64,000 bases of DNA from Gracilaria domingensis (Eukaryota > Rhodophyta > Florideophyceae > Gracilariales > Gracilariaceae), in the NCBI GenBank assembly GCA_022539475.1, contig VCMS01000007.1, positions 89,011-153,010 on the forward strand, given 5' to 3'. The number at the start of each line of letters is the position of its first letter. Within the stretch, counting starts at the first letter, position 1. The notes beneath the pieces are model-generated. The model searched no databases, was not told where the DNA came from, and was given only the letters and a program-made list of their open reading frames with translations. Made by a program: the position numbers and the translations under genes. Below are positions 10,640 through 64,000 of this stretch, piece by piece.

Positions 10640-12845
10640 TTGGTGGCGCGAAATACACCCTGTGCCATCTTCTCGAGGTCGCTATGGATAGCGCTGGAAC
10701 TAAACGCCGTCGTCTCTAACTTGATGACGTCCTGGTGCCGCGTTCATCAACGGCTTCCAGCTCTTCCAATGCGGCCCGTTCTTCACGCGGAAGTCATGAT
10801 TATGGCGCTGCGACCAGCACTAATGGCTCAGCCGTCCCGTTTTGGTGATCTTTATGACCATATTAATGGCCGCGGGCCTAGGAACGTCTGATACGTCAAC
10901 ATTTCATACCCGATTCATATGTACCTGGAATTGCAGGAGGAGGTCTTCGATGCTCGCCGCTTCGCTTCGGTTCCACTCGGCCCGGGAGGACCTAAGCGGG
11001 GAAGGGTCGACGCGTGATACCAAAGGTGGCTACACTGCCCCATCAATGCGGAGACAGTTCCGTTCTGTGTGGGGTACACCCGTACGTACATGCCTTTCGT
11101 TCGTGTCGCTGCGGAGGAAGGGTATCAGCGGAGAGTTAATGAACTCCTTGACACATTATATGCCACATTTCGTGATTCTCTGGTACCATTTCCTTCAATC
11201 GATCACAACTTGCTGGGGCTGATGAGTTTTCCGTCGCCATATGATTCCATGTATTGGATGAGAGACGGGAAGCGATGGAACGAGATGCACGAGCCCGAGA
11301 GGAGAATGAGAACCAACTTGAACTACTTCTTCTGTTGGCACCAAATCGAGTTCCATGATTGGGAGCCCTCAGACCGCGACGGACTGTACCTGGGTCTTCT
11401 TTGCCTCGATGACATCGATTGGCAGGATTTTTGGCCCGTTTCTAATTTACTTGCAGTTCCCACTCCTTCTCTGGTGGGGTACCACACGCGCCAGTTGATC
11501 TCGTCCCCGAACGATCGTTGAGCGTAGTTGACTTGGCAGGTGCTCACCCAGGCCAAACTCGTTAAGGGAAAACTAAAGGGCTTTCAGTAGACTTGCAGAC
11601 AAAGTGACTGGTGTAGTAAGGTAATATGACCAACTTCATTGAAAAATAAGTACGTTTTTGTTTCACTGACATTTCCATGAGTGTGATTTTTTGAAAAAAT
11701 TAAAGTCCTCGAAAGTGCCATTACATTTTATTGAAAGGAATCAATTTCATTTATCGCCGCATGATGATTCAATGACAATGGGTTTTTCTAGGGTCACAGT
11801 GGAGTGGGCTGTGTTTGTATTAATGTCGTTTCTAGACATAGCCAAGTATGGGGTGCGTTGCAACATTAGAACAAAGGACTGGAGAACGTGGAGCGAAGCG
11901 GTAGACTACCCAAGCCCACGGGGCCGGCTGGTGCGCTTGCCCCGCATGATGAAAATATACATCAGAGAATTAGGCATTAAAAACACCGTGCGGGGTACCG
12001 AACATCGAGCAACAATGGTTGAGAGTCTTCTGGACTATGTCTCCCAAGTGAACTGGGCTGATACACCAGGCTTCCTGTGGTACGATTATGACACAGACAA
12101 CTTCCTTCCCATTCCGAGGCACCCTTCTCAAATGGATGACGGAAGGGCGTATCCAGCCTTCCCAGTCAAGCGTCGCTTCGAAGCGGTGCCAAAAAGGATA
12201 GTAGCCGACTACTTTTCCAGGGCAGCGGGCTTCAGCCCTGATTGCCCAACCTCCAGCGGTACCTCTTTAGCCCCACCTGTGCTTCCAGTCGGTGCAAGTG
12301 GACAGACAGCGTCTGTGAATAATGAAGCTAAACTTCCCGCGGCAGAGATCGAAGCACCATCGGTGGAGAAGCCACTGCTTCATGCGGACGTGAGCCTGGC
12401 GAGAGGGGTTGTTGCGAATCAGTCTGGCGAGAGGCTCCTGCCGTGTGCCGCCGGTGGCAAGATGAATCATTCCGAGTGGCATTCACGGTCAGCAGCCGCT
12501 TCTCCAAGTGTTGGTACCGCAATCCCCAACGCGGAAGAAGCGTCACTTGCTTCCAATCTGGGACACGTTGAGGGTCCTTCCGTTGAGGTTCAGCCCCGAG
12601 GAGATGTGGTGATAATCCCACCCGCCACAGCCGCCGCGTTAGATTCCTTGGCTCAGGAGATGTACGCCCATGGATACCAAGGTCTGTACCGACTCGGAGA
12701 CATTGCAATAGGTGCTCGCTCTTGGTTGCGGCGCTCTGTGAGGTACGAGGCCTTGTTGGTTGAGCTCGGCGCGCTGCGCAGCGGCTTAGATGCCATATTT
12801 CTCAGGAACTCAAGTCTACTTTCTCACGAGGTAACGGCAAATTAG
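10640..12845 (+). pseudogene. Antisense ORF (aORF) region of chromovirus C, divergent
   Basis: Several plus-strand open segments in different frames (10640-10891, 11069-11521, 11691-12845) lie opposite to element C. The best-preserved part, 11691-12845, resembles the aORFs of A and B in one block (about 11930-12130): an Arg/Leu-rich helix, then a motif ending VNWADTP and a YD-x-D stretch that aligns with DWSTVP and DWNEVP of the others. The N-terminal half does not align convincingly by eye. The C-terminal half is Ala/Ser/Pro-rich. Function unknown. Confidence 0.45.
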
Positions 12846-13477
12846 AACCAGCGGTTGCAGAACAAGGGGCACGAGCTCTCGGACTCAGAAGAATCTGACA
12901 TTCTTCCCGCGAACACACCTCAGCCCAGTGCTGGGGGACGCTCCAAACGTCTACGACGTGTCCAGCAGGAGGAGAGTTGATCATATAGCTGTCTTGCGAG
13001 GCTGCTGGGAGGCCATTGGCGTGAACAGGCGACGGTGAGGGCTGCAGTAGATCAAATAAAGTAATTAGAGCGATTTTTTGAGATTTGCCATCCGTAATCG
13101 CGCGCGGCGCTGCGCGCGAGTTGCGCATCGCTGCGGTAACCCGCAAGATAACGCCAGTTTGAGCACATTTGGGATATTCTAAATCCGGTGTGGCCTTGTC
13201 TGTGCGCTGCCTAGGAACCGAGATATAGCCAATTCTTTGTTTTCGGGCAAAAACTCGAGTGGCAGGCGGTTTCAAAAATTGCGCAATAACCATTGGATTT
13301 TTTGGCACGCCGTGCGCCGTTGCAAGCGGCATGCGCGCATTACTCAGGCCAATGGTTTTGCGCGTTGCCATATTTAGCCAGTTAAGTTGATAGTTAGGAA
13401 TGCATACAGCGAAAACATTCGCTGGAAATGTCAGACGGTGTAAATCTTTTCCATTCTGGACAGCGTGGCTGTGTGTG
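12846..13477. other. Spacer between aORF and pol end in chromovirus C
   Basis: A minus-strand frame is open for much of this interval (12802-13659), but its product is basic and low in recognisable structure. It overlaps the chromodomain in another frame and is probably fortuitous. Comparable 0.45-0.5-kb spacers occur in A and B. Confidence 0.4.
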
Positions 13478-13784
13478 CTACGAATCATACGCCCCCTGCT
13501 TAAAGACGCGCTCCGTGCGACCCTGCTCGTTCCAAAACCTTTGGATAAAGTTTTCGGGGATGTGCTTCCTTTGTTCCCACTGGTCAAACTCCGGTGGATA
13601 ACCATACCATCGGACCTTATAGATGACATTACAGACATCATCGAGACCGGCGGAAACAATGTGGTCTACCACATACTCCTTAGGTTAGACCTCTTCTGGT
13701 AAATCCATCGTATCCAGCGGACCAAAGCCTGAAGGAGAAGGTGCTTCAACCTTCTTCAAGCTGCGGCAGTCGATGACCTGGGAA
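13478..13784 (-). pseudogene. pol: C-terminal chromodomain of chromovirus C pol
   Basis: The frame enters from the truncated side at about 13784. After a short Pro/Ser linker and one in-frame TAA near 13692-13694, it encodes a chromodomain: YVVDHIVSAG, then YKVRWYGYPPEFDQWE and a terminal helix, ending at 13478. Chromodomains on retrotransposon integrases are known to guide insertion by binding chromatin marks. Everything upstream in the polyprotein is missing. Confidence 0.75.
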
Positions 13785-13867
13785 TATCATGCTCCCTCGC
13801 GGAAGACGGCTCGAGCGATGCCGAGGAAGATTCGTAAGGATGGGACATCTACGATGCTGTTTCAGCC

Positions 13868-16696
13868 GTGTCAGACAGGCGCCCAGAATCGGGTTCTTTC
13901 GTACCGATCAAGCCAGAAGGACTCATCCGGGAACAGCACACGGACCGTTTTTGTACGGAGATTCGTAGCCGTTTGAAGGGCGGAACACGGCTGCCTTTGG
14001 CCGAGAACGACCAAGGATTCCTCATCCAAACTGTCGGACACAGGCAACAGATTGTGGTTCCGCACTCACTTCAGTCACGAGTACTGCATCTGTCGCACTA
14101 TGCGAAGCTCTCAGCCCACCCTGGTGGCAGGAAGTTGTACTACAACCTAAGGAAGGACTTCTACTGGCCAGCGATGGCTTTCGATGCGTATTCTACTGTT
14201 CGTGGATGTTCTGATTGCGCAAAGAGCCGCGCCAAACTGCGGAAGTACTCCAAGAAATTGGTACTCTTCCCCGCTAGGGCTCCACTCGAATTCGCGGCTA
14301 TTGACTCGCTGGGTGAGTTCATTCGCACTCGCGAGGGAAACCGGTTTCTACTTGTGATCACCGACCGCTTTTCTAAGCTGGTACGGACTGTGCCTTTGAA
14401 GAAGGTTACCGCCAGTGCGGTCGCCCAAGCTTTCGTTACACACTGGGTTTTTGTCTACGGACCGCCGATTGATTTGCTATCGGATAATGAACCGCAGTTT
14501 GCGGCTAAGTTCTTTCAGGATGTCTGCCGCATCTTGCCGATCCAAAACTGGTTCACGACAAAATATCATCTCCAGAGTAATCGGCAGGTTGAACGCTTTA
14601 ACCGCACAATGCTCAATGCATTACGGACGTTCGCTGCCGAGCATCCGTCGGAATGGGATCCATACACCGATGCGGTGACATATGCCTACAATACGCAGGT
14701 TCATCGCACTACTCACATCTCGCCGTTCGAGCTTGTGATATCACGCGTTCCACCGTCGGTGGTCATCGAGCCACAGCCAATTCTGGATCAGTTTCCCTCG
14801 CCCCGCCTACATAGAGACGCGTGGAAGGGCTGTCTCACGAAGATTATTCCTATGGTTAAGCAAAATATTTCTAAGGCACAGGCCGCTTGCAAGCGAGATT
14901 TCGACGCAAGAGTGCGCAAACATGCCCCTCAGATTATGGAAGGTAGCTATGCCTTCATACGGAAGGAATACTACAATCCCGAGAAGGAGAAGCGCCACAA
15001 GCTTTCTCCTATCGCGGATAGTCCCTACAGGGTCATTTCCGTTACCGACCCTACCGTTTTCCTTGACATCAAGGGAGAGCACGAGCGTTTTTCGCGGGAT
15101 CGCGTAACGCCTGCACCAACGCGTGCTTCTCAGGAAACGCAACGGGAAACGCCGGATACCACTACGCCTACTGAGGCACCAGCCGCCGAAGCGGGAGCGC
15201 GCACTTCGTTGTCAGTATTGCGGCATCCCAACCGCGGACTTGCTGATTTGCCGGATAAGCCGGAATCTCACCAGTCAGTCTCTGCTGCCGCTCACGTACG
15301 CACGCGGATACTGGCCCCTCCGGGGATACTTACCACCGCCCCCGACGCTCCGACTGAGGAGAGGGAGGAGGATGCAAATCGCTCGCTGTCGTTGTCGCCG
15401 TCGTCAACGGAATTGCCGTTGCAGGCCTTAATGTCGAACGCAAGTCGTGGTGAACGCCCGAGGACGCGCGACGCACAGCCGGACAATCGGAAAGACGCAA
15501 AGAACGCGCAGCTATCGCGGAAGCCTGAGGAGGAAAGCACCACTTCGGTGGAGCACGAAGCCGGACACCCGGAAGAGTACCAGAGTGTAGCTGCTGGAGA
15601 AGGCGCCGCTTTGCCCGCGGACGGTACTGTACTGCCGTCACAGACGGAAGAACAAGAGCCTGCCCCGGATGTGCAGCGTGAGACCGGTGCGCCGGAGAAG
15701 AGTGTGGTAAACACCGCAGCAGCCGCGTCGAATGCGGAGAATACACCCGCGCTGCAGTCGGAGCCCGCGAGCGGGAACCCAAATGCATCAAGGAAAGCCG
15801 GAAGTCCGGAAGAAAAGTTAGTCAAAAGAGACCGTGCTGTTACGGCAGACCCGACTTCGGGAGATCTTAGTGAAACATCGATTGATGAAGCCGTTGAAAA
15901 CATGGAGGAAACCGCCGCAATGGCGTGCCGATACGCTACAGTAAGTGGGGAGCAGCACAATGCTGCACGCGCGCACACAACGCGCCGAGTGTCTAGCTTC
16001 GCCGGCGATCCGCCTCCAGTGGAGGACAACAGCACACGAGCCCGTCACGTGCCCGCTGTAAGGCTGGCGGCCGCCGAAAATGGAAATTCGGAATTCGAAT
16101 CGGCAGCGCACAGCCGTGCAACGGCGCAGGCCCCATCACCCGCAGTGAGTGGCGAAACGTCGCCACGGCGCCCACAACAGCACCACTTCATGGCGCACCG
16201 CAATGCGTACAGTTCACTCTCACGACGGGAGACCTCGCCGGAACGCCGGAAGCTCGCTATTCGAGAAGACCAAAGTAAGGTCACAGCCCGACAACACGGG
16301 AAGGAAAGCCAGAAATCTGGAAGCTTGAATGTCAGGAACACACAATCCTTCCCAGGACCACCAGGCGTACAGAACGCACTGCCGTCAGAACGGAAGCCGT
16401 TTGGCAACGATGCCCACGACGGGAAATTACTCAACGACACCTCAGAAGGGGGCACAATAACCGAACCGCACTCTGAGTGGCGTGTACTCGACAGGGAGTA
16501 CGTTATGAACCGTCTGATTAGTCAAGGCTATGGCTCTGATGTAGAGCTATTGTATCGAGTCTGTTGCTACGGCTGTCCTTCTTCGAAGGATACACATGAG
16601 CCTATCGAGCATCTTCCTCGCTCTAAGGTCCTACAGTACTACCGTCGCACACGGATACCAATACCGGATACGCTGGACAGAGCCCAAGTGGGTTGA
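13868..16696 (+). CDS. pol: Chromovirus A integrase with long linker and chromodomain
   Basis: A 942-codon open stretch; an in-frame TAA at about 13834 precedes it, and the listed start is a GTG, so this is a pol fragment rather than a complete gene. It contains the integrase zinc site (HYAKLSAHPGG to CSDCAK), the core with D in AIDSLG, D in LLSDNEPQF and E in RQVERFNR, and a GPY/F-type module near residues 366-410 (RKEYYNPEKEK). Then comes an Ala/Glu/Pro/Ser-rich, probably disordered stretch of about 450 residues. The end is chromodomain-like (871-942, YRVCCYGCPSS, HLPRSKVL). B has the same unusual layout. Confidence 0.88.
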   Translation: MSDRRPESGSFVPIKPEGLIREQHTDRFCTEIRSRLKGGTRLPLAENDQGFLIQTVGHRQQIVVPHSLQSRVLHLSHYAKLSAHPGGRKLYYNLRKDFYWPAMAFDAYSTVRGCSDCAKSRAKLRKYSKKLVLFPARAPLEFAAIDSLGEFIRTREGNRFLLVITDRFSKLVRTVPLKKVTASAVAQAFVTHWVFVYGPPIDLLSDNEPQFAAKFFQDVCRILPIQNWFTTKYHLQSNRQVERFNRTMLNALRTFAAEHPSEWDPYTDAVTYAYNTQVHRTTHISPFELVISRVPPSVVIEPQPILDQFPSPRLHRDAWKGCLTKIIPMVKQNISKAQAACKRDFDARVRKHAPQIMEGSYAFIRKEYYNPEKEKRHKLSPIADSPYRVISVTDPTVFLDIKGEHERFSRDRVTPAPTRASQETQRETPDTTTPTEAPAAEAGARTSLSVLRHPNRGLADLPDKPESHQSVSAAAHVRTRILAPPGILTTAPDAPTEEREEDANRSLSLSPSSTELPLQALMSNASRGERPRTRDAQPDNRKDAKNAQLSRKPEEESTTSVEHEAGHPEEYQSVAAGEGAALPADGTVLPSQTEEQEPAPDVQRETGAPEKSVVNTAAAASNAENTPALQSEPASGNPNASRKAGSPEEKLVKRDRAVTADPTSGDLSETSIDEAVENMEETAAMACRYATVSGEQHNAARAHTTRRVSSFAGDPPPVEDNSTRARHVPAVRLAAAENGNSEFESAAHSRATAQAPSPAVSGETSPRRPQQHHFMAHRNAYSSLSRRETSPERRKLAIREDQSKVTARQHGKESQKSGSLNVRNTQSFPGPPGVQNALPSERKPFGNDAHDGKLLNDTSEGGTITEPHSEWRVLDREYVMNRLISQGYGSDVELLYRVCCYGCPSSKDTHEPIEHLPRSKVLQYYRRTRIPIPDTLDRAQVG

Positions 16697-17137: not shown

Positions 17138-18922
17138 CTACCGGGAGCCCCGGAGAAGCGCTGTGCCGCTAGCGCTTGCAATTCCGACTCGTCGGTCACC
17201 GGGAACATCGGGAACGGCCACTCCCACCCCTCGGAGGAAGTCGCGAATGACCGGCGCTCGCGGAGTGAGAGAGGAACTACCGCCCCCGGCGGATGCCATG
17301 TCCTGAGTCCACGGGCCGGTCGGAGCGGGAGCCGCTACAGCGGGTTGGACAACAACCACGATTTCGTCGTCATCTCCCATAGCTTCGGGCTCCGGTACAA
17401 CCTCCACGCTCTCTGGGCTCCCCTCATCCATGGGGCTTCCTCCCTCTGCAGGGTCATCGCCGTCGTCATCGACGTATACGAACCCACGCGGGTGCCCTTT
17501 CGGGATATGACGCTCCTCTCGGCGGCGACCAGCCGCCTCAGCGGGACCAATTATCTCCCAAATCCATGAGTCAAAGTATACGAAGTCGCCGGCATTGACG
17601 TTCCCTCCGGGAGAACGGTCCGACTGCCGACGAACCCCGTCGGAAACCTGACTAGCAGGCACCTCATTCCAGTCAATCTGGTCAATGACGTCCACCAACG
17701 CGCTGGCCTCACCCGCATTGCAGACCGGGTCGAGCACTTCGGAGAGGTCCAGTGCCCGGATCGCTTGCCGGATGAGCTCCGGGATAAACCACACCCGGTA
17801 CGAATCATATGCCTCGATGAGGAGGAAAGCCGCAACGCGGACGGTCTATTCTGTAGCAAGGATGCTCCAAAGGCCGCGAGGCGGATCATTCATGAAATAG
17901 GAGCCTATGTAGGTTAGGCAGGGCTGCAGTTCTACGTGACACCCTCGTGGGACTTCGATCGCAAGCCAGAATGACGGCAGCGGCAGGTATCGCCCCGTAT
18001 GGGAGTGTCGCGCGATGCGCTCAACCTCCGTGCATTGGTACGGCACCAGTACCCCGAAGCTGGAACTCCATTACCTCTCGAATCGGAGGCCTTCATGGAA
18101 TTGAGACCGTGCTGGACGGCGAAGAAACCGGAACTCGGCACGAAGAATAGGCCGAGCCCACAGGACCAGCTCCTGCTGCGGCTGAACGGTGTCCGAGTAT
18201 CGGTCGATTTCGTCCAACGCATTGGCTAGATGGTCGCCGTAGCCGACCTCGCCGAAAGTTCGGTAGCGTGTCACGTCATACTGGTACTGTGCCGGCACCG
18301 GATGCTCGTTCGGAGCTCGAAAGTGTGGCGCGTACCCGATGCGGGCCATATCATTGCGAGCAAATTGTCTCGTCTCGTTTCGACCTACGAACAGGCAACT
18401 CGGTGTAACCGCAACGCGGGCGATCCAGTCCCAGGAACGGGTAACGTCAGCAGGGAGCCCACCAGAGAGTTAACCGTCGACAGCGTACGACTCGACGAGC
18501 TCGGTATCCCAAATGGCCTCGGCGTCAAGCCAGGGAGCCTGGGCAAAAAGGAAACTCTGCCGGTGCGGATCCCGGATGCGTAGCGCGCCTGCAGTAGGCC
18601 ATCCACCCAGCGTAGCTGGCATCTCGGCGTTGAACCAATCTCATACGTGCGCGGGGGTCGCCTGAGCTGGTGCGTGATCTTGTTCGGAAGAACCCGGCTG
18701 GGAGGCAGCCGCCGACTGCGGAAGAGGTACAGACCAAAACAGCGGGTTGGAAACTTGCATACGTGCCGTCGAAGACGGATGGGCGTTAGGTGTGTTGGAC
18801 ATCGCGGGAGGGCTCGAGATGGCGAGGTTCGCTATTGACGCCGGAGGTGTTGGTGGTTCCGAACAGTTCTCGGCAGACCCGTCTTGGGAAACTTCCTTAT
18901 ATACCTCCATAGCGAGGCGCAT
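17138..18922 (-). pseudogene. Antisense ORF (aORF) of chromovirus A
   Basis: One minus-strand frame of 595 codons from ATG 18922 to 17138, with four in-frame stops (18641, 18470, 18071, 17846). It starts 42 bp from the 3' LTR and runs against pol. It aligns with the aORF of B through much of its length: SWDW...RVAV, LPLPSFWLAIEVPRGC, then RVAAFLLIEAYD and IDQIDWNEVPAS. The C-terminal third is acidic and Pro/Ala-rich. The stop at 17846 lies where B has Trp. No known domain is recognised and no signal peptide or membrane segment is evident. Shared protein motifs despite decay argue that the ancestor was a real gene. Confidence 0.75.
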
Positions 18923-34211: not shown

Positions 34212-34337
34212 GCAACAAGTTTCGAGACCCTCGGGTTCTTAAGGATACCAGTCACCCACTGCAACAACGACGCTTTCATTGCGTCTCCACCAAAGCGTTT
34301 CATCTAATTGTTCGTACCGCTGCCGTTCAGGATTGCT

Positions 34338-47580: not shown

Positions 47581-47584
<4 letters not shown>

Positions 47585-48634: not shown

Positions 48635-49064
48635 CGGACCGTTGTTTTACTCTTCCTCTCTTGCAGATTACTGCTTACCTATGTCAGGTGGTTTTTCCGT
48701 CTCTGTACAGAGTTACTGCCCCGTGCGCTTAATACACAACCCCCGTCTCCCGCCGCCGGGTCTGTTGCCGCTTCTCGCACGCCCCATCGAGAGTTCCTTC
48801 TCTAGCTTACCCTTCCTTTTCCACCTTTTACCTAGGTCTCACTCCGCTCTACCGTACCTTTCGTCTCCACCATTCCGTCACTTTTGCCGGACTCCTCTAT
48901 CAGGCTCGTTCACCCATCAATCTCCGTAGGTATTTCCTGTACCACGGACGATCTTACACCCGCACTATCCGTGTTCGGGGGATTCACTACTGGTTCTCCT
49001 CGTCTAGAGGGAAAGGACTCGAACGCCTTGAGAGACGATCCCATCCCTGGGATTTTGCTCTACA
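48635..49064 (+). repeat. Chromovirus B 5' LTR, 5'-truncated
   Basis: 430 bp aligning to 59649-60080, the 3' half of the other LTR, ending CTCTACA. The first ~540 bp, which should hold the promoter, are missing. The sequence just inside (AGTGATCTTCCGACTTAG) corresponds to the primer site AGTGGTCTCCCGACCTAG of element D. Confidence 0.9.
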
Positions 49065-49281
49065 AGTGATCTTCCGACTTAGAACGGGTTGGATTCTTTC
49101 TTTCGTTCTCGTTCTTGTCGAGGAGTTTCACGATTAGTGATCAATTGATTTTTGGGAAGCTACTGTAAAACAGTGGACTCTCTAGAGTGTTTTTTTTGTT
49201 TTTAGTTACTTATTCTTTGGAGTATCGAGACCTCTCCTTATTAATTTCATTTTACCGCTGTTCGGTACACCATGGCCTGGT

Positions 49282-51378
49282 TTGGCGCCACCTGCGCCGA
49301 ACTCTCGAAACGGTGTGGCCAGAGATGCTGGTGTGCCTCCGCCTAGGCCTACGCGTTCTCGCGCTTCCGTACCTGCAAGGTCGCCTGACAATGAACAGGT
49401 CCCGGAACCCCGGAGATCTTCTTCAGTCACGTCGGGTCCGATGGCCGCTTCTACGGCAGAAACTCCGCCCGTTACGGGTACTCCGGCCACGAGGAGACCA
49501 GACGATGTGGTTGAAACCCCTGGATACTCGTTCCTCGAGGTTAAACTGCGTGTCAGTCAGCTCGCGCAAAACTCGTTGTTCGAGGATCTGCAGTATCTCA
49601 GACGGAAGCTTGACCAAGCTGAAATCGGAGATCCGACCAATGACATTCGTGTCTTACGTCAGGACGTGAATTCCATTTTGGAAAGTCTGGGTGCACCAGC
49701 TGCTTTTGTTCAAGCTTACCATTCCTCTATTCAGGAGCATCGAGCTGAAATCGATCGCCTAACCACTCGGTTGTCTACTCTCGAAGAGATCATCCGGATG
49801 GATAACGCATCCGATGCGAAGAATGCTAAGGAAGAAGCTTCTAAGCGCTCGGCACGCCAGTCTCCGTATCACGGAAATCGACGATCCAAAAAGGAACTCC
49901 GTTACGACTCGGATTTGTCTAGTTCCAATTCTAGCGTTCGCTCTGCGAAATCTACTTCATCCAGTTCTTCGGACAGTGAGGAAGACCGAGAACGGTATGG
50001 GAGTCGATCCTTCGGAACGAAGTCGAAGGCTACATATGCCATTCAAGGAGTGATTCGCTCTCGCGAGAAAGATAGACGTCATCTTGGACTCAAGGAGTTG
50101 ATATCAACGAATCTTTTCTACAGGAAGCTGTTATCGTATCGTTATTACCGATTGGACGATTCATCGTCAAGTCGCACCTCGCGAAGCACCAGTAAGGTGA
50201 AGGACCACATCAGAGAACTGAATATCTTCTTTACGAAGATATTCGATGGCGAAGATCCAATTCTGGTACTGGACTTCCTGGCCCGCTTTGTGCAGGAAGC
50301 CGACATTCTCGGTATGAACGAGGCGCAAGCGTTTCTCGCTTTACCCTATTTTCTGTCAGGAATGGCTGAAGATCAGTTTAACTCGGTCCGAGTATCGTCC
50401 CATGCATCTGAGGGAGGTGTCAGTTGTTGGCCGGAAGCGGTCCAATACCTCCTGGGGTCCTATGCAAGAGGAAGCGCGATTCACAACTCGACGCTCGCTC
50501 TACGAGATACTAAACAGAAGACTGAAGAGACCGAAACGGTTTACTCAACTCGGTTGAACAAAGCGTTTCATCGCTGTGGAAATGTGTACTCCGCTCAGGA
50601 GAGATGCACGATGTTCGTAAATGGGTTGGACCCTTCTATCAAGGCTTTGGTGGCGCGATATCGCGAAGAGAAACGTAGGATTACGTATCTGGAATTGGTC
50701 CAGTACGCCCAGGCTGAAGACGAAGTCCTCCGTGCTCGGCGCCCGCCGAAACCCCGTCGCTCAAGGGCGTTGCTCGTCAACCAGTCATCTCCATCCCTTT
50801 CCTTGGAACGTGGAAACTCCGTGAACCCGGATCTGGATAACGTCCACTTCGTTGGAAGTGCTCCCGATTCGTACGGGTCTTCTGACATTCCGTCGTCGTC
50901 AACTCCGATCTCGGAAGGTGACCCCGCACTCTATATGGGAGGAACACGGGTACAGGCCGCTCCACTCGCTTACGCGACCAACGGCAGCCGTTTCTTACGC
51001 CCAGGAAGGGTGCATGCGCAACCGCAACGACGGCCAGATGGTAATCGATCTTTCGATAAGTCGGTGACGACCATCTGTCATATTTGTTACTGACCCGGTC
51101 ATATTGCACCTGTGTGCATGTTGCCCGCTCGGGAGTTACCGAAATTTATCGGGTGGTACGAGTCCTTGTCACCAGCTGACCGTGCTCGTGTTCCGAGTAA
51201 GAATTATGAAGAGCAAAGGGCCAAGTTTGGCAATCCTGTTACAGGACAGAACGTTCGAACTGAGCAACGTCGGAACCAGGCTGAACAGGTAACTGTGACC
51301 AACCCCAAACCCGAGAATTCTGTTTCCCAATCTGAGCAGAGTTTGCCGTCGCCGGCCAATCGCGCCCAGAAAAACTAA
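49282..51378 (+). pseudogene. gag: Chromovirus B Gag
   Basis: Frame of ~699 codons with one stop, TGA 51091-51093. No ATG is in phase at the position where element D has one (62519), so the start is lost. Layout: Pro/Arg-rich N-terminus, coiled coil (~95-180), Ser/Arg/Asp-rich linker (~190-250), capsid-type region (DPILVLDFLARFVQEADIL to TYLELVQYAQAEDEV) and a zinc knuckle. The TGA falls inside the knuckle CHICY*PGHIAPVC, where CGA would give a perfect CX2CX4HX4C. The frame ends CAG AAA AAC TAA. Confidence 0.88.
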
Positions 51379-51432
51379 ACTTAGGAGTTCCCCCTGCGGG
51401 AGGAGCGTCTCCTGAGCCGAAGTCGGAGACGC
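51369..51432 (+). promoter_or_regulatory. Probable -1 frameshift region of chromovirus B
   Basis: The gag terminus CAG AAA AAC TAA has G AAA AAC (51369-51375) where T1 has A AAA AAC, in the same phase against the stop. The pol frame is exactly -1. Downstream are a weak stem (about 51388-51404) and an 8-bp perfect stem GCGTCTCC/GGAGACGC (51405-51432). One base change from A to G would explain a weakened heptamer. Confidence 0.55.
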
Positions 51433-54400
51433 CCGAGGCGCCGCCGCTTCGCTCCCAGGTCTCTTTCCTTGAGAGGAAGATCCTTACGAGGAAGATGGCT
51501 CAATCTGAGGTAGACTCAGAGCTTTTAACGGTTCTCCGTCGTCCGTGGGTACGCTCCTGGAATTTCCGTAACCCGGATATAGTCCTTGTGATGGCCACGA
51601 GGAATTAGAAGGTTTACGCCGATCTCGGCTTATCACACCAGTTTATGGTTCGTCAACTGTCTGTGTTGGACACGGGGGCTGCGCCCAATCTCATTCACTC
51701 TTCGTTAGTGCCCCCGGCACTTCTGGAATTCGTTCGCTATGGTCCAGGCTTGGATATCGCTGACCCGAACAATAACCCGTTGCGCACGGTTGGTTACTTA
51801 ACTCTCACAGTGAGACTTGGCACCTACGTGGTGAAACTTGAATTTGTTGTTCTGCGATTCACTCGCTGCACCGGTTATACTCGGTTGTGATTTTTGCGAC
51901 CGCTTTGTCGAAGCGATACGCCCAAGGGAGAAAACCGTGGAAATAGAAGACGGTACAACCATTCCGATCGTTCGGAAGCCGTTGAGGCGCGCAATCCGGA
52001 AGCGCGTTCCATTACCTGTGGCTCAGGAGGTTCCAAACGTGGATCCGAAATCAACAAAGCTTCGCATAGCGAAATCCGTTTCAATCCCGCCGGAATCCCA
52101 GGTGTGGGTGCAGTGCGTCTCCAAACAACGTGGAATTCGACTAGTTCAACCGTCTTCATCGTTATACGATCAGCGACAGCTCGCTTTAGCTAATGGTGTC
52201 GTTTCTATCAAACCCCATCAACCTTTCCAGGTACTGGTTGCCAACTTTGGCAGAACCACTCAGTTGCTAGTCAAAAACCAGGTACTGGGTTCGGTCCTGC
52301 CGCATCCAAAGGCGCTCGTACAGACGAAGATCCCGACGTCCGAGGCTCTCGGTGTGCCCGAAGCAAAGGAGGGGGAGGTGCGTCCTGGAAACTCCGTTTT
52401 GTCGGATTCCTCCAGAAATGGAAACTTCGCCGTACCGGAAGCAGTCGCTACTGAAGAGGTGAATCTAGTTAGTTCGGGCCACGAACGACCGTTCATTCCG
52501 GTTATATCAGCGCTACCCCCTGGCACAGAACAGACAAATCCTGTTGAGTAATTAGAGAAGTTGAATCTGAACCATGTCCCAGCGTCTCATCGCGAGAAGT
52601 TGCGAGACATGCTGAGAGAATTTACTCCCATGTGGGACGGTTCCCTTGGAACAATTGGATTTACGGAGCAGCGTATTGATCTGCTTCCAGATACTCGCCC
52701 AATCGCGCAACACCCGTATCGGGCTGGCCCGAAAGCGCGGGAAGAAGAAAAGTCTCAAGTCGAGAAGATGCTACGTGCCGACGTAATTGAGCCAGCTCAG
52801 TCGTCATAAGCATCGCCCGTTGTAACTGTTCCGAAGTTGGATGGATCGTGGCGTTTTTGCATGGATTACAGGCGCCTTAACGCCGTTACCGTCAAAGACG
52901 TGTATCCGATCCACGGATGGATGAGTACATCGACTCGCTGGGAAGATACAGAGTGTTTACCACCCTTGACGCCAATTGGGGTTACTGGCAGGTTCCAATT
53001 CGAAAGGAAGATCGCGACAAGACCGCATTTGTATCTCACCAAGGACTGTACCGTTTCAAACGGATGCCCTTCGGGCTAACGAATGCTCCCGCTACATTTC
53101 AGCGCGCGATTGACATTCTGTTGTATGTCTTATGTGAAGGAAGTGATGCAGGTTCTGCGAGAGGCAAGTTCTGCGTGACGCAGGTGTTACCTTGAAGCTC
53201 AAGAAATGCGAATTCTTTACCGACTCGGTGAAATACCTGGGCCACATTATCCGCCCAAGGAAACTCTTGGTCGACGAGGTAAGGTTGAAGTCGCTGAAGG
53301 AAGCGAGACATCCGACAACTCAAACGGAACTCCAATCGTTTCTCGGTTTGTGTAATGTCTACCGTCGGTTCGTCCCGAATCTCGCTGATACTGCAGCTCC
53401 TCTCAACTCCCTCCTCAGGAAAGGACAGCCAGTTAAACTGGAACCATTCGGCGATGCGGAAGCATGCGCCTTTTCGTCGTTAATCGACGCAGTTACGTCT
53501 CCGCCGATTTTGGGGTTGCCCACTCCAGGGCTTCCATATGAAGTTGATACTGATTCTAGTGACCACCAAGTGGGATGTGCATTGTTTCAAGTCTCGAAGG
53601 AAGGCGAGCGACGTCCAGTTCGATACTGGTCTTGTTCATTGAACGTGCATGAGCGTAATTACTCAGTCTCTGAGAAAGAGTGTCTCGCCGTCGTTTGGGC
53701 GCTGTCTACCTTAAGACCCTATCTCATGGGAACCAATTTTCAGGTACATACCGATCATTCGGCTCTCCGCTGGCTCATGGAGATCTCCGAGCCGTCGGGT
53801 CGCCTTATGCGTTGGCGTCTCCGCTTATCGGAATTCGATTTTGATGTCCGGTACAAACGGGGCACCCCGAATATGCAGGCTGATGCGCTTTCCCGTTTAG
53901 GAACGTCTGGTGAAGCAGAACCTGTCGACGACGACGACATACCATGCTTCTTGGTAGAAGACCGGGAGAAAGACTCCGAAATTACGGATGACGTTTGTGA
54001 CGATATTCTCGCCGCAGAAACGGTCGAGCCACCGCCTGGCTCATTTGAACCCATTACCGCTGAAGAGGTAATACGAGAACAACACGGGGATCCTTTCTGT
54101 ACTCAGATAAGGGCCCGACTCAACGGGGGATTCAAGATACCCTTTCTAACCAACGATCAGGGATGTCTTGTTAGGATTGTTAGGCCACGCCCTCAAATTG
54201 TGGTTCCACACTCCCTACATTGGAGGGTTCTCCATATGTCCCACTATGCAAAGATTGGGGGAGACCCTGGTGGCAGGAAGTTGTATCTAACTCTCCGAAG
54301 AGACTTTTATTGGACAGCTATGGCATTCGACTGCTACGCAGTACGCCGTTCATGCACGGAATGCGCCAAGAACAACGTCAAACTCCAAAGAAATTCGAAG

Positions 54401-54970
54401 TCGATGACGCTGTTACCAGCCCGGGCTCCTTTAGAGTTCGTCGCTATCGACATTCTGGGCGAATTAATTCGAACTGCACGCGGTCACAGGTACCTCCTGG
54501 TTATCACAGACAGGTTTTTGAAGTTAATCCGAACGGTTCCGTTGAAGCGGATCACTGCAGCAGCAGTTGCAAAAGCATTTGTGGCGCATTGGGTCTTCAC
54601 TTACGGGCGACCCGTTAATTTGCTTTCAGACAATGGCTCGCAGTTTGCGTCAAAGTTCTTTATGGACGTATGCCGTATCTTGGATGTCAAGAATTTGTTT
54701 ACAACAACCTATCATCCTCAGTGTAATGGGCAGGTAGAACGATTTAATCGTACAATGCTCAACGCATTACGATCCTATGTTGCGGATCACCCAAAGGATT
54801 GGGACTTGTACACCGATGCTATTACGTACGCGTATAACACCCAGGTGCATCGGGTAACGAAGCTTTCGCCCTTTGAACTCGTTCTTTCGAGCATACCGCC
54901 ACCGGTAGCAATCGAATCACAACCGAAGCTAGAGTCTTTCCCGTCACCACGGATGTACAAGGACACCTGA
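51375..54970 (+). pseudogene. pol: Chromovirus B pol: protease, RT, RNase H, integrase
   Basis: Protease with intact VLDTGAAPN (about 51664); a TAG at 51606-51608 precedes it and a one-base shift follows at about 51,855. RT (from about 52561) has TAA at 52807-52809, a shift near 52,915, WGYWQVPI and [10 protein letters not shown], but the segment that should hold YxDD is gone between about 53,120 and 53,180, where the frame moves into LKLKKCEF. RNase H (VDTDSSDHQVG, HTDHSALRW). Integrase zinc site and D (AIDILG), D (LLSDNGSQF), E (NGQVERFNR) intact. TGA 54968-54970 stands where element A has Trp. Confidence 0.9.
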
Positions 54971-56825
54971 AAAAAGTGGTTAACCAAGATGTTACCGGTA
55001 GCCCAGAAGGCCATGGACAAGGCACAGCTTACGTACAAGCGTAATTTCGATCTCCGAATTCGCGCTACACCAGTGGTGGTAGAGCCCAACAGCTTTGTGT
55101 TCCTTCGGAAGGAGTATTACAATCCTGACAAGGAAAAGAGACATAAGCTCTCCCCCATCGCTGATGGACCATATCACGTCATTTCCGTCAATCCGGATAC
55201 CGTCGTACTCGACATTGATGGACGTCATGAACGAATCTCGCGTGAGCGCGTTGTGCCCGCCCCGACGCCACCCACCGCAACCGGGGCCACCTCAACCAAT
55301 ACCCAATCTGGGGATCCTCAACAGGAGGCAGAGCCGTCAACATCCGCTACACTACCGTCGTGCCCGGCGATTCTTCCGCACCCGGATCGAGGATTAATTG
55401 ATCTACCTACAGTAGGTACTTCTGACCACAGAACTGAACTTTCTACTACTTGGAGGAATTCCAACTACTCTGCACGAGTATTTACAAGAGTAACCCCTCC
55501 ACTCCATCTTCTGATGGAGCCCGTGGCGCCACCTAAGGAGGGGGAGGATACCGCAGCTGCTGCGAGTGGCACTGACGCTCCGTTGTCGCCCGGTTCCCCA
55601 ACCACGGGAAATGTGATCCACACTGACAATCCAGTTGCTCCCGTGGGAGAATCTAGTGGCACAGTTGCCTTGTCGCACCCCAACCGTGAGGACTCCGCCG
55701 TATCGGTCTCCGTTACAACGGAACGTGCCCGCGAGAGACGCGACGCTGTCGCAGAAGCAGCTACCGACTCTGGGACCTCTAACCAATTGAACTTGCGTAT
55801 CCGCGCTGAGAAGCACAGCCGAACTGTGAAAACGGTTTCCGCTGATCCGGACCAGCCGCTGCACGCGAAAGAATAGCATTGCAACCCTGGAAGGGGAAGC
55901 CTCGTGAACGAGTTGTGCTGAGTATCACCACTCATTATGGATTCCTTTGTGGGACTTTTAACGCTTTTTTGGAAGCCGACACTCACAGTGTGAACGACAT
56001 TGCGTGTGGAGACTTGGAACTTCGCCACCCCTGCAAGAAGTGCAATCTCCGTGACACGGGGCCTGACAGAACCAGGCGCGTGGCACGCGATGCACGTTAC
56101 AACGTGGAAAGCCCTAATGAGCGGTCGGAGACCTTTCGCGAACGGATGGCCGAGCACCGCACGCGCACGATTGTCGTAGTCGCCAATCTGTGGCGTAGAG
56201 TCAATCAGAGCTCTTGGCACAAGCCCCGTGGACCGGGTGAACCGCCGCCCTGCCAAGGGAGTGCCGTACGCACCTCCCTCACCGAAACGGTTATCCCCGT
56301 GAAGACCGGGAGATTCGTCAACCGGAAGTACTACCGTTTGTCGGTCCCTCGACTCTCGTCGAATAACGTGATACCGTTGGACTCATCTGATCGAGAGCTT
56401 TGCAACTACCTCTCTAGCTCGAGGATAGGACGCATAGGACGCGAGTTACAGTATGGCCGCCGCAGCGGAATGCGTGGAAAACCGCGGAAGTAAGCCCGTC
56501 TCCGACACTTGGAAAGCTTCACCTGCGTGATTTTAGGCAGCTACAGAACCTCTCTAGGTGAAACTACGTCAGCAGGAGTGGCCCATACGCCATGGAGGCC
56601 CGCGAACGGGAAGTGTTACCACAGGAATTCGTTATCGAACGCATCGTGAGTCACGTCGTGAACCCCGATGGGGAGACAGAATACCAAGTCCGTTGGTACG
56701 GATACTCCCCTGAGGAGGATACTTTCGAGCCGATCGAACATCTGCCTCGATCGAAGGTTCTCGCCTACTACCGGCGCAAGCGCTTACCGCCACCTCCAAA
56801 CTTGGACGCAGCCCAGGTAGGGTGA
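54971..56825 (+). pseudogene. pol: Chromovirus B pol tail: GPY/F module, linker, chromodomain
   Basis: Continues the pol frame to TAG 55874-55876, with RKEYYNPDKEKRHKLSPIADGP, then a Pro/Thr/Ala-rich linker; moves through another frame (55879-56493); and ends in a well-preserved chromodomain (56592-56825: FVIERIVSHVV, YQVRWYGYSPEEDTFEPIEHL). The distance from the GPY/F module to the chromodomain is about 450 codons, as in element A. Confidence 0.85.
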
Positions 56826-57310
56826 CAATACTACTGTGCCGTGAGGTGAACCGACGGGCTCATTTGTGGGAGAATTATTGATGGTATTACCAAGAAGTTT
56901 GGGTTGTTCCTACGGAAGGAAGTATTGAAGGGATGAAAGAAGAAAGATGAATTCCGTGTAACGGACTCCGACTTATCGGAAAGAAGCGAACTATCGTCTA
57001 ACAACCCGTGTGAATACGTCGTGAAGTTACACGCGTAATGGAGAATCGTATTGGAACGATGGTGCGCTAAAGGCATTGAACCATAATCCGGTTATGAAGG
57101 AACTGATATCGGAGTCGACTTTATTCTAAGGAGAAGTTGTACCGCTAGCTATTGCGAAGTGCGTTTGTCGCACAGCCTACCACAGCCCATCATAAAGGGA
57201 ACCCACCGTTGAGATCACTGCCATCCTGCCGAAGGACCGGTACCTCCAGGGTTGGACGGCCCCGCTTGGGGAGGCTGACTGGTGAAAGCCTGCGCGCCTA
57301 ATGCCAACAG
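56826..57310. other. Spacer between pol and aORF in chromovirus B
   Basis: 485 bp with no ORF of note, at the convergence of the two coding directions. Confidence 0.4.
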
Positions 57311-59029
57311 CTAGCCGAGGTCATACATATCCGGTGGAACCGGCACCCCAAGTCCGAGGAGTTGGTTGCGCATCGCTATCACGCGAGGGTCAATGTTCCC
57401 CTGCGAAGGGCCCACGTCCCAACCGATAAGAGCAACTGGCGCAGCCGCCCCTCCGACAACCGGAACTTCTGCGGAAGCCGCCGACGGACCTCCTGTTGCC
57501 GGGTCTTCCACAGTCTCATCCACTATTGGATCGTCCTCCTCTGCTACGGAGTAATAGTTGTCGGAAAACATGAACCCAATAGGGTGATCGCTCGGAACCA
57601 CTCGAGCAAGTCCGCGTAGGACGAAATCCCGCTCCTTGGGGACGGTAACTCCCTCCCAGGGATCGTATTACACGAAGTCATCGGCACCCGGATGTCTTCG
57701 CCCCGGCGAACGGTCGTAGTGCGAACTAGTGCCCCTGGGGACGTTTTCCGCCGGAACGGTACTCCAATCAATGGAATCGACGAGATCGATAAGGCTGATG
57801 ACCTCGCTGACGTTGTTATCCAAACCGAGCGCGGTGTATAAGTCTAGTGATCTAATCACATTCCCTAACCTCAGAGGCAAATACCAAACACCGTCCTGGT
57901 CGTATGCTTCCCATAGGATAAACGCGGCAACGCGAGCGGCCCATTCGGCGATGAAGAGCATCCAATACTCCGAGTGCGGATTCGCAATCATGCGTGACCC
58001 CACATAAGAGATGCACGGAGGCAATTCCGGGAAACACCCGCGCGGTACCTCATAGTGAGCCCACCACGATGGGAGTGGAGCGAATCGACCCGCTAGTGCG
58101 TCCGGACGCAAACGTTCAACCTCCATGTTCTGGTGTGGAATCAGATACCCGAACCGGGATCGCCATTTGCGTTCGTTTCGCAGTCGGTCGAAGAAGCTTC
58201 GCTCTCCCGAAGGGCGATGTAGATATCGGAACTCCGATCGCAGGATAAGCCTGTTGAACAGGAGGATGTCCGCCGGCATCGACTCCGGGAAGTTTTCCGC
58301 CGGTTGGAAGTTCGCGGGGTTCGCGCCATACTTGATCTCTCCGTAAGTTCGGAACCGGGAGAGGTCAAACCCCTATGACTCGGGAATCCTCTCGGGGAAC
58401 GAGGCTCGGTCCTTTCGAAAATATGCCAATCGCGCCATAGCCGCGCGCGCTTCATCCAGCGTTTCGTATCCACGGCCGCGCCGTTTTCGTGACAACACGT
58501 GGGGTGCGACCGCCACGCGGTGTCTCCAATCCCAGGAATCCACCATATCTCGGTGTAGGCCGCCAGGCAGCATACCGTTCTCGGTGTACGAATCCATCAA
58601 CGCACCGTTGCGAACCGCTGTCGGTTGAAACCAGGGCCCTCTGGAATAGGCCCAGCTTCCTCCAGTAGTCGGATCTTGAACAAGGAGCGATTCACGCGCT
58701 ATCCATCCAGCTGGAGTCGCCAGCAAGGGCACCGCCTGAGCGGAATTTCACGCCGCGACGTCGACCGGGTTTGGTGTAATCGTGTGATGTTGACTCTGAG
58801 GCAGAGGAGCAGAGGCGAAACCGCCGAGATACCCTGTCGCAGGAGTTGCGGTACCCGAAACGTTCGCAGCCCCGGCTTGGGAATGCTGCTCGTCGCCCTG
58901 GTGAAAGTTCATCGAATCGTCGATCGCAGAGAAAACTTCAGGTACTGAATCGTCTGAGTGCAGAGAAGTTGAGCGCGCTTGCGCATATGTCTCGTTGTGA
59001 CGAGGAACCGGAATCTCGGATATGTCCAT
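57311..59029 (-). pseudogene. Antisense ORF (aORF) of chromovirus B
   Basis: 573 codons in one minus-strand frame from ATG 59029-59027, 81 bp from the 3' LTR, to 57311, with only three stops: TGA 58748, TAG 58373, TAA 57668. All could come from Trp or Gln codons by one transition. Ser/Thr/His-rich N-terminus (~1-95), a Trp-rich central region (SWDWRHRVAVAPHVL; APLPSWWAHYEVPRGC; PELPPCISYVGS; EWAARVAAFILWEAYD), a helix-rich block (VISLIDLVDSIDWSTVP), and an acidic C-terminus. Aligns clearly with the aORF of A. No known family recognised. Confidence 0.78.
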
Positions 59030-59109
59030 GGTGGACCACGCTTATATATTTGCTCGCTGATGAGTCTTCGCTTGCAAACCGGATGTTTCCTGCCCTAAGG
59101 AGGGGAATA

Positions 59110-60080
59110 TGTAGAGTAAAACGTCTTCGCTCGGTATACGGGGAAAGATTTCATAAACCCCTGGTAAGGATGATTCCGGGTATTCGGAAGGTATGAGTAT
59201 TGGCCCACGGATGGGATACTTTTTGGCAGTATTGAGGTATGGCACCCTGAGAGGTCGGCCATGACGTGGCGCAGGTGAGTATTGGTCGCGTGTACGCGTG
59301 TGAAGGAATGGCTGTGTTCACACATTTCTTGTTATGATTGTCGGATATTTTACTGGCCGCTGCCGCGGGTTGTCACGTGCACCACGTGTATGGACCTGCT
59401 TAGGTGTGCATTCGATTATCTAATTTAGTTTAACTAATTTATCGGTTACGATTTAAGAGTTGACCTCCCGGTCACCTCCTCCTTCAGTAAAGAGTAACCG
59501 AGTCCGGCTCTGAACTAAGTTCGCCTGCGCAAAGTGCACAACTCCCTCAGGAGGGTCACCGCGTACGGTACGGACTGGATTCATCCCTCGGGATCATTCA
59601 GGCACTACTGACCTACACAGCTGTTGCCCTCGGGCTCATTTCCGTCTTCGGACCGTTGTTTTACTCTTCTTTTCTTGCAGATTACTGCTTATCTGTGTCA
59701 GGTGGTTTTTCCGTCTCTGCACAGAGTTACTGCCGCGTGGGCTTAATACACAACCCCCGCTTCCTGCCGCCGGGTCTGTTGCTGCTTGTCGCACGCCCCG
59801 CCGAGGGTTCCTCCTTTGGTTTTCCCTTCCTTTTCCACCTTTTACCTAGGGCTTACACCGCTCTACCGTACCTTTCCTCCCGACCATTCCGTCACTTTTC
59901 GCCGGATTCCTCGATCAGGCCCGTTCACCCCTCAACCTCCGTAGGTTTATCCCGTACCACGGGCGGTCTTACACCCGCACTATCCGTGTTCGGAGGGCTC
60001 ACCACTGAGTTCACCTCGTCTAGAGGGCAAGGACTCGAACGCCTTGAGAGACGATCCAATCGCTGGGGTATTTCTCTACA
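59110..60080 (+). repeat. Chromovirus B 3' LTR
   Basis: 971 bp, TGTAGAG to CTCTACA, preceded by AAGGAGGGGAATA. It is related to the D LTR and more distantly to the A LTRs. It interrupts an A-type LTR. Confidence 0.93.
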
Positions 60081-60873
60081 TTACCGGCTTCGACACCTCA
60101 TGTTACGAAAGGCTGCTGTAGTAGTGGCCCTATCTGGGGGTAGGCCTAGGAAAGGTAGTTTTTCTGCACACGTGTGCTGAGTTGGCCCGGTGTCGGGTGC
60201 GCCATGGGAAGCCTGCCACGGTTTCACACGTGTAGGATGTTGGCCGGCAGCGCCGGATAGTTAGATATTTCTAGTTGATATTTTCAAGTGCCTTATATAG
60301 GTGGCGGCACTTTCCGCCACTGCACGGGAAGTAAACCTCAAGGAGGCTTCTGGCTCTGACTTTTTTGCCGCTTGTGAACGGTCTTCGTCCCTAATCGGGC
60401 AAACCGCCACAATTCCGGGCTAGTCATCCGACCTCTACCACTGAGAAGTTCTAGACCGTCGTTACGGCATCTTTTCTGTTGTTTTATTGCTATTATTTCC
60501 GTCATACGGCACCTATCGCTTTGCCCTGTTAAACAGGTTTGACCCACATTGTCTGGGAATATTTTTTGACCTCGCGAGTCAGTGCACCGCTGCGCGGCTC
60601 GTTGGTTGCCCGTTTTGTCCAACACCGTTGATTTGGATATCTGCACTCGCTGTGGCTCGCCGAAACTACCCGAATTTTACGCCGATTCTACTTACCCCAA
60701 TCTCCGGCTGCACGCCGAGGACGGGGCTGCCAGGATTTACACCCGGCCTGTGTCAGCCCTATTGGAGGGCTCTACCACTGACCCTATCCCTATAGAGAGC
60801 GAGGATCGAACACCCTGTAGATGCCCTTTCCGCGACGCGGCCCTTGTTCGCTCACTCGTGGGATTGCACGACA
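60081..60873 (+). repeat. Remainder of an A-type LTR (A3)
   Basis: Begins TTACCGGCTTCGACACC, matching A2 from about 20476, and continues to the LTR end GCACGACA. The first ~60 bp of the LTR are not present on the other side of B, because B's left end is truncated. It shows that B inserted into an existing LTR. The TATA region (about 60294-60300) has the same inverted AGTGCC/GGCACT flanks. Confidence 0.88.
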
Positions 60874-61374: not shown

Positions 61375-62353
61375 TGTAGAGCAATCGCGATTTCGCGTTT
61401 GTGACGCGTTCCGTCTCATAACACCTCGGCCTTCCGAGATGCCTCTACAGCAAGGTTATGAATTTAGGTGGCATTTTGACGCTATATGGCATGGTGGCAC
61501 CCGATGGGGTCGATGAATTGGTAACTGGTTGTGGCAGTGGATCGCGTGTACGCGTGTATGGATTGGCTCTGTTACAGAGAAAATTGGATTGTTTATTAGA
61601 ATTAGTGGCCGCCGAGGCGGGTCTGCACATGTGCAACACGTGTGTGGCTCTGCCGTATTTGGCACTACTTAGTTTAATTATTTAGTTTAATTTGTGGAAA
61701 CTTACTTAGGTGATGGCGACCTCGCCGTCACCACCACAAAGTAAACCCAACCTTGTCGGCGGCTCTGACTTGAGCGTCTGCGCGTAGTGCACAACTCCGC
61801 GAGGAGGGTCACCGCGTACGGCTTCGCTTATTTCATCCCCAGGAGATCACTCAGGTACCCTGATCTAACACTACGTTTGTCTTCGGACTGTGTTCGCACA
61901 TTTATTTGCAGGTGTATGCTACTCTGGTGTTCAGATATTGTATCGACTCTGTATAGAGGTCTGCCGTGTGGGCTCAATACACATCGTCACCATCAGCCCG
62001 GGTCTGTTGCCGCTTGTGGCACGACCCCGCCCTCGGGTTTGCCCCTTTCTCTTCTATTTCCTTTCCCCCTTTTCCCATCTTTTTCCCTATCTTTTCCCTC
62101 TTTTTCGGGGCACAGCGTTGACCTGGGTTCCTCCCCTTCCGCCTCCGATCAGAGATGTCCGACTCTCGGACGTTTGCTTACGGATTCCTGCTTGGCGATT
62201 CCCGCCGTCACCTCCGTGGTATTTCCGAAGTACGGGCGGATTTACACCCGCGCTATCCGTATACGGAGGGCTCTTCTGCTGAGTCTACCTCCCAAGGGAG
62301 CAAGAATTCGAGCACGTTGAGTGTCATTTCTCCCAAGTGGGATTTGCACTACA
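61375..62353 (+). repeat. Chromovirus D 5' LTR
   Basis: 979 bp, TGTAGAG to CACTACA. It shares blocks with the B LTR, e.g. GAGGAGGGTCACCGCGTACGG (61800-61820) and the pyrimidine-rich 3' half. It is followed by AG then TGGTCTCCCGACCTAG, the probable tRNA primer site. Confidence 0.9.
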
Positions 62354-62375
62354 AGTGGTCTCCCGACCTAGAACG
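62354..62375 (+). other. Chromovirus D probable primer-binding site
   Basis: Two bases after the LTR: TGGTCTCCCGACCTAGAAC. Same offset as in T1. The matching tRNA was not identified. Confidence 0.5.
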
Positions 62376-62518
62376 GATTCGTTCTTGAATTGATTCCGAT
62401 TTGGAAGTGTTTCCTATTGGAAGTCTTGAAGGTTTGGTTGTTTTGAACACTGGTTTTCAGTTGTCTTGTTATATTGTCCCCGCTCTTGGGAGTATCGAGA
62501 TCGATTATATCGTTTCCG

Positions 62519-64000
62519 ATGCCTACAGGTGATCAGGTATCCCGATATGGCACCAATCGCAGCGTGGGAGGTTCATCTGCAGTACTGCCTGCTCCGCCGC
62601 GATCCCGGCTGTCCGTCCCGGAAGACTTGAACCGTGCTGAACCGACTCCAGTGACCCGAAGAGCACCCTCGGTTGCGTCTGCGCCTTGGGTGATCGCTGC
62701 TACAGCGAAAGCTTCACCTGTTGTAGAAACGCCGTCTGCAGCTCAGCCAACTGGCACTGGCTCACCCGAATTTAACCTCTTGGAAGCGCAACTCAGAGTG
62801 AGTCAACTCGCTCAGAGTTTCCTCTTCGAGGATGTCCATTCCCTTCGTAGGAAGGTGGATGAGGCCCAGCTTAGGGACTTCTCAGAAGATATACGTCTTC
62901 TGCGACGTGACTTGAATTCCATTCTGGAAAATCTGGGTTCCCCAGCAACGTTTGTCGAAACGTACCGATCCTTCATGTAGGAATGTCGTGAAGAAGTGAA
63001 CCGTTTCCGTCTCCGGTTGAACTCCCTTGAGGAAATCATCCGTATGGATACCACGGCTAACGCGAAGGATGAAGAAGATGAAGGCTCGAAGCATTCGACA
63101 CACCGTTCGTCGGTTAAGGGACACAGAAGGTCCAAGAAGAAAGTCCGTTACAATTCGGATTCGTCGAGTACCGACTCAAGCATTGGCTCTGTGAAGTCGT
63201 CGTCCGACTCGTCTGACAGCGAGGATGATGGTCGTCGACACCGCACGCGGTCACGTGCTACAAAGTCGAGAGCGACGCAAGCCACTCAAGGGGCTATTCG
63301 CACCCGTGAGAAGGGTAGGCGCCATATTGGCTTAAAAGAGTTGAAACAAACGAATCCTTTATACAGGAAGCTGCTTTCCTATCGGTATTACCAATTGCAC
63401 GATTCGTCGTCTGACCGCGGTTCGCGAAGCACCGGCAAGGTGAAAGACTACATCAAGCGATTATACATCGTCATGCAAACGTAATTCGATGGCGAAGACC
63501 CAATCATGGAGTTAGATTTTCTCGCCCGGTTCGTTCGGGAAGCCGATATACTCGGAATGAGTGAAGCTCAAGCGTATCTCGCTTTACCGTACTTCTTATC
63601 CGGCATGGCGGAGGATCTATTGAATTCTGTTCGATTTTCCCCGAGAGCCTCCGAAGGTGGAGTTACTTGTTGGCCAGAAGCGATACAATACCTTCTCAGG
63701 TCGTACGCAACTGCCAATGCGATCCAAAACGCGATCCTCGCTCTCCGAGATACCAAGCAGAAGCCTGGTGAAACCGAAACGGTATATTCAACTCGTTTGA
63801 ATAAAGCGTTTCATCGCTGTGGAAATGTGTACTCTGCTCAAGAGAGATGCACGATGTTCGTGGATGGACTTGACCCCGCGATACGGGCTTCGGTGGCTCG
63901 TCACCGTGAAGAAAAGCGTCGAATCACTTAGCTGGAGCTCGTCCAGTATGCCCAGGCAGAGGGTGACACGCTTCGTGCGCGACAAGAACCGAGGCGCCGG
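62519..64000 (+). pseudogene. gag: Chromovirus D Gag (partial, three stops)
   Basis: ATG 62519 (MPTGDQVSRYG) followed by a single frame aligning with Gag of B. Stops: TAG 62978-62980 where B has Gln, TAA 63482-63484, TAG 63929-63931 where B has Tyr. Coiled coil about 80-160, Ser/Asp/Arg-rich linker, then the capsid-type region (ELDFLARFVREADILG). It continues past the window end, before the zinc knuckle. Confidence 0.88.

Follow-up and report, generated by a model that had tools for sequence, protein, structure and literature searches.

The window analysed here, a stretch of 64,000 nucleotides of red-algal DNA, contains long reading frames on the strand opposite to gag-pol of Ty3/gypsy elements, and raises the question of whether such a frame is a gene and, if so, what its product does for the element. 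Element B extends over about 48635-60080 on the plus strand, and its components are listed in the Table together with those of elements A and C. The segment 57215-59029 (-) is a decayed copy of an antisense gene of approximately 600 codons, which belongs to a Ty3/gypsy element with a chromodomain and occupies the interval from pol to the 3' LTR. The first-pass annotation had placed a frame at 57311-59029; its location and its start close to the 3' LTR are confirmed, the ATG at 59029 being separated by 80 bp from the LTR start at 59110, but its end has to be revised, since position 57311 corresponds to a premature stop and the alignment with intact relatives continues to 57218, with the TGA following immediately. 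The in-frame stops are found at codons 94, 219, 454 and 573 of 604.

Table. Elements B, A and C: coordinates of their components in the window
Feature	Position	Strand	Remarks
Antisense accessory gene of element B, decayed	57215..59029	(-)	ATG, 604 codons, four in-frame stops, then TGA
Chromodomain, 3' end of element B sense coding region	56592..56825	(+)	Pfam Chromo 48.8 bits, cut-off 25.1
RNase H and integrase part of element B pol	53147..54970	(+)	Pfam RT_RNaseH, Integrase_H2C2, rve
Gag-position frame of element B	49186..51093	(+)	Pfam: no match
5' LTR remnant of element B	48635..49064	(+)	ends TTTTGCTCTACA; 5' part not found
3' LTR of element B	59110..60080	(+)	starts TGTAGAG, ends TCTACA
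Antisense gene of element A, in pieces	about 17138..18835	(-)	tblastn with nine relatives
RNase H/integrase part and 3' end of sense frame, element A	13757..16696	(+)	Pfam Integrase_H2C2 above cut-off, rve just below
Divergent antisense gene of element C (element on minus strand)	11018..12845	(+)	C-type relative matches two pieces, 41% and 61%
Remnant, end of element C sense coding region	13173..13752	(-)	80% identical to same part of C-type locus L060, 585 bases

The insertion of element B is old, as its 3' LTR and the remnant of its 5' LTR share 89% identity over 430 aligned bases. The start of the LTR, TGTAGAGTAAAA (59110-59121), and its end, TTTTGCTCTACA (5' copy, 49053-49064), form a nearly perfect 12-base terminal inverted repeat. 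Just upstream of the truncated 5' LTR, about 510 bp are duplicated in tandem (46958-47466 and 47581-48086, 99% identical). Directly 3' of the 3' LTR, the region 60081-60873 is 79-83% alike to LTR-like sequence at 19025-21270 and is perhaps an LTR of the element-A family adjoining element B. The last part of the window, 61542-64000, holds the beginning of another related element, whose LTR-like sequence and gag-position frame resemble those of element B at 68% and 59%, respectively; a match to the antisense gene at contig position 160246-160851 (-), past the window end, may represent the antisense gene of this element.

The arrangement of element B is also found in element A, across 13757-18835, where the antisense gene shares 35-42% protein identity with nine relatives. 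Element C represents the 3' end of an element on the minus strand, and its frame is thus antisense too; the two pieces matching a C-type relative bear out the suggestion of the first-pass annotation that this element carries a divergent version. Taken alone, the element C protein displays only a weak likeness to the A/B type, with a best blastp E of 4.5e-4 and an HMM E of 0.11 that misses the inclusion threshold. A profile-profile comparison of three C-type with seven A/B-type antisense proteins yields a probability of 95.4% (E 2e-8), whereas 20 controls with shuffled columns do not exceed 1.39%. A small minus-strand Ty3/gypsy element (2034-7037; 216-bp LTRs 98% alike; matches to protease, RT, integrase and chromodomain) lacks the antisense gene; its pol frame ends directly at an LTR and leaves no space for one. 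The window further contains a MULE-type DNA transposon (33935-40427) with fully complementary 225-bp terminal inverted repeats, a MULE transposase frame (36722-39505) and a second long frame without Pfam match (34308-36731), as well as a 589-codon frame with Sel1 repeats (28782-30551) resembling an intronless host gene; a tRNA scan of the window found none.

In the 77.9-Mb, 680-contig red-algal assembly, no fewer than five element lineages carry the antisense gene on the strand opposite to pol, and its intact open frames there span 608-755 codons. Among the best 150 of 1023 matches to the element B gene, at least 36 have an uninterrupted frame of 660 aa and at least five an intact frame of 608 aa; among the best 150 of 955 matches to the element A gene, at least 49 have a 610-aa frame, two with a stop inside the match and 47 without. 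Many of the best 107 of 427 matches to the C-type gene have long frames, and the three loci taken for detailed analysis contain intact frames of 628, 688 and 755 aa. With long frames preserved intact in dozens of copies across the genome, the antisense frame is more than a chance opening. The shared motifs pointed out in the first-pass annotation are largely invariant across seven aligned copies, whose conserved core comprises RPI(L/I)RAEFR, EVP(R/K)GC with another invariant cysteine further on, and VAAF, the termini of the protein showing little conservation. In the same assembly, 10 of 12 phycobilisome matches fall on one contig, which we took to be the plastid genome, and this identifies the host as a red alga rather than a land plant.

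The position relative to pol is equally regular. Pairs of gene and pol are on opposite strands in 46 of 46 cases in the element-B-type search (median distance 2713 bp) and in 71 of 72 in the element-A-type search (mostly about 2200 bp) among the matches listed, and the distance is nearly constant in both sets. These counts come from the best 74 of 3284 pol matches (46 of 74 with the gene) and the best 101 of 2447 (72 of 101), and are lower bounds. Two pols of the C-type loci (L059 and L060), containing RT, RNase H and integrase, converge on the antisense genes of 688 and 755 codons; the third (L061), with 1777 N, was used for orientation only. According to the first-pass annotation, a lack of the frame in most intact family members would have spoken against a gene; among the matches listed, the gene adjoins pol in 18 of 22 and 19 of 23 elements with a long pol frame, and 16 of the latter 19 carry an antisense frame of at least 590 codons. 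Like an aORF-3R, it is thus situated between pol and the 3' LTR, antisense to gag-pol, in most of the listed long-pol copies. The place is also the usual one of an env-like gene, and an envelope-like third gene was considered; it is made very improbable by the antisense orientation seen in both pair sets and by the hydropathy of seven antisense proteins, which reveals no clear transmembrane stretch (highest 19-residue value 1.41-1.73).

A total of 57 pol matches (28 + 29) have no listed gene beside them; since the searches score the best candidates, a missing listed neighbour does not prove absence. Eight of these were inspected, all with long pol frames. Three (L066-L068) possess the gene with frame breaks, one (L062) retains its C-terminal end only, and one (L069) has no antisense gene at the place inspected beside pol. 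The remaining three (L063-L065), together with L073, form a sub-lineage of the element-A type in which the pol frames measure 1896-1899 aa and the antisense gene is missing: where it would be expected, L063-L065 are about 99% alike, with no match to any antisense protein, and in L073 no antisense gene is found from the end of pol to past the LTR-like sequence. The long pol frames of this sub-lineage indicate that the gene is not strictly needed in cis.

Is the antisense frame maintained as a protein? We compared variants among 40 copies, namely 39 of 40 fetched group-1 loci (L045 was left out due to coverage and span limits) and the window copy. Variants found in a single copy have an N/S of 2.65 and include 48 stops out of 1062, where neutrality predicts an N/S of 2.34-2.88 and 3.7-3.8% stops; these changes look neutral, like decay after insertion. 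Variants present in two to three copies, a class possibly inflated by near-identical duplicates such as L013/L014, have an N/S of 1.61 and 14 stops, and those present in four or more copies an N/S of 0.57 (33 to 58) and no stop at all. The difference between singleton and shared variants is associated with a Fisher p of 7.5e-12, which serves as a guide rather than an exact probability because related copies are not independent. Setting private against shared variants in a single genome is a direct test of selection on the antisense protein, and its answer is clear. Wherever dS is computable, comparisons between sub-lineages give an NG86 dN/dS of 0.10-0.29; dS between lineages is near or at saturation, and eight between-lineage pairs gave no dN/dS for this reason. 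Within sub-lineages dN/dS is 0.26-0.77, the mix expected from selection before insertion and neutrality thereafter. The past selection claimed in the first-pass annotation is therefore upheld, and the neutrality of the antisense frame, named there as the opposite outcome, is not what the shared variants and the between-sub-lineage values display.

Two other readings of this pattern have to be weighed. The antisense frame might be a mirror artefact, open merely because the other strand codes for protein. Shared variants bring no such decrease of N/S in four of the five other reading frames of the same DNA; the mirror frame on the pol strand shows a weaker one (0.87), as would suit this reading, because its third positions coincide with those of the antisense frame. 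Between intact copies of different lineages (36-73% protein identity), the antisense frame has no stop and the differences lie mostly at its third codon positions, whereas in 12 pairs every other frame, the mirror included, contains 14-55 stops per pair. The artefact was rejected on these grounds and is exceedingly improbable. Alternatively, the functional product could be the antisense RNA and not a protein, for instance through dsRNA control of the element; gene and pol do converge, and such roles of transcripts are discussed for other elements in PMC7264820. Constraint that tracks antisense codons, with the low shared N/S and no shared stops, makes RNA as the sole product hardly credible, an additional RNA role being possible. 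We conclude that the antisense frame is almost certainly a selected protein-coding gene.

The gene also appears to have a long common history with pol. In four elements, compared with the antisense gene taken from an intact relative in the case of B and A, pol identity is 66% and 61% within groups and 42-46% across, and the antisense protein shares 43% and 34% within groups and 20-22% across. Both sequences thus divide into the same two groups with one deep split, and the antisense protein evolves faster than pol. To judge from these identities, the gene has probably been travelling with pol since before the split of the two element groups.

The identity of the product was addressed by profile and sequence searches of Pfam, PDB sequences and IMG/VR, which yielded no credible match and agree with the earlier remark that the protein resembles nothing recognised. 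Weak Pfam lines, such as Cyclophil_like2 (best E 0.042) and Prominin (0.071) among others, were rejected as lying below cut-offs or having E above 0.04, and so were two PDB chains with E of 0.82 and 0.99; in IMG/VR, 69 and 50 pattern stretches include no relative of the antisense protein. The antisense proteins contain no conserved basic cluster and no recognisable domain, and two AlphaFold models built from the window sequence have a mean pLDDT of 35.9 and 39.8. An origin from gag is unsupported, the comparison with the elements' own gag-position protein giving an hhalign probability of 0.1% or less. Capture long ago of a host gene or of a gene of another mobile element, which is compatible with the selected accessory gene favoured here, is easily read from a separate gene on the opposite strand; no source gene is found in Pfam, PDB sequences or IMG/VR, and we regard this origin as possible and somewhat doubtful.

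The most parsimonious interpretation of the product is as a soluble accessory protein, translated from an antisense transcript. The gene, converging on pol from the opposite strand, was kept by selection as long as the elements were active, and after insertion the copies decay neutrally. Translation would proceed from the gene's own antisense transcript, presumably begun in or just inside the 3' LTR; group 1 and L049 have a TATA-like sequence 20-25 bases upstream of the ATG, which is not clearly present elsewhere. Less surely, the soluble, fast-evolving product may act in trans and in the nucleus on the expression or the silencing of the element itself, a mode of action that others have proposed for antisense ORFs of plants. 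Taken as a whole, including its inferred steps, we consider this explanation likely. Its functional part, a regulatory or anti-silencing role, is proposed tentatively, by analogy with the plant antisense ORFs, of which the Grande product is reported in PMC7264820 to be located in the nucleus and expressed from a promoter of its own. An accessory protein with a structural or particle-associated role, aiding packaging, transport or integration and not expression, would equally be soluble-looking, abundant among young copies and linked to pol while evolving faster than it. The lack of likeness to the gag-position protein and the fact that a separate antisense transcript would require its own timing argue against this role, which seems rather unlikely.

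Going further, the antisense proteins could constitute a superfamily not described before, ancient and present almost throughout a deep red-algal clade of chromodomain Ty3 elements, of independent origin and acting in trans in counter-silencing or self-regulation, with the gene-less sub-lineage borrowing the protein from related elements; this wider picture is speculative and less probable than not. That sub-lineage is in any case a natural comparison for the function of the antisense gene, and its presence beside lineages with intact genes makes the question of function approachable.

The label chromovirus given to element B rests on the C-terminal chromodomain in a Ty3/gypsy pol and is provisional, and chromodomain Gypsy elements outside the chromoviruses are described in brown algae (PMC12477816). 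Among the other elements, L059 has a chromodomain match of 22.0 bits, below the Pfam cut-off of 25.1, and none is detected at E 1 in the decayed frame of element A or in L060, whose frame ends early. Plant Ty3/gypsy groups with an antisense ORF in this position, mentioned in the first-pass annotation, are indeed on record as Grande and Retand (PMC7264820, PMC11963269). They resemble the red-algal gene in position, in antisense orientation, in presence in most recently active copies and in a function that is not known; as presented in these two papers, the case for the plant ORFs rested mainly on presence and similarity, with function unproven. However, Grande and Retand are non-chromovirus elements of flowering plants, whereas the present ones combine a chromodomain pol with a red-algal host. 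Moreover, 97% of the Retand clusters encode Transposase_28 (TRP28, PF04195) according to PMC11963269, whereas the antisense proteins examined here, seven of A/B type and three of C type, have no match to this family at E 1 or better; judging from sequence, they are apparently unrelated to the plant ones. No red-algal case of an antisense ORF was found in the open-licence literature, preprints excluded. The layout itself is known from plants; what is new is a pol with a chromodomain, a host among the red algae, and a protein in which neither Transposase_28 nor another domain is recognised. Among the closest known systems is also the antisense ORF of the fungal element Boty of Botrytis. The antisense genes of deltaretroviruses, HBZ and APH-2, likewise start near the 3' LTR (PMC7264820, PMC11963269); their products are described there as nuclear regulators, a role that is conjectural for the red-algal one, and no homology is claimed. 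The finding of an unrelated-looking antisense protein in red-algal chromodomain elements suggests that the antisense strategy arose more than once.
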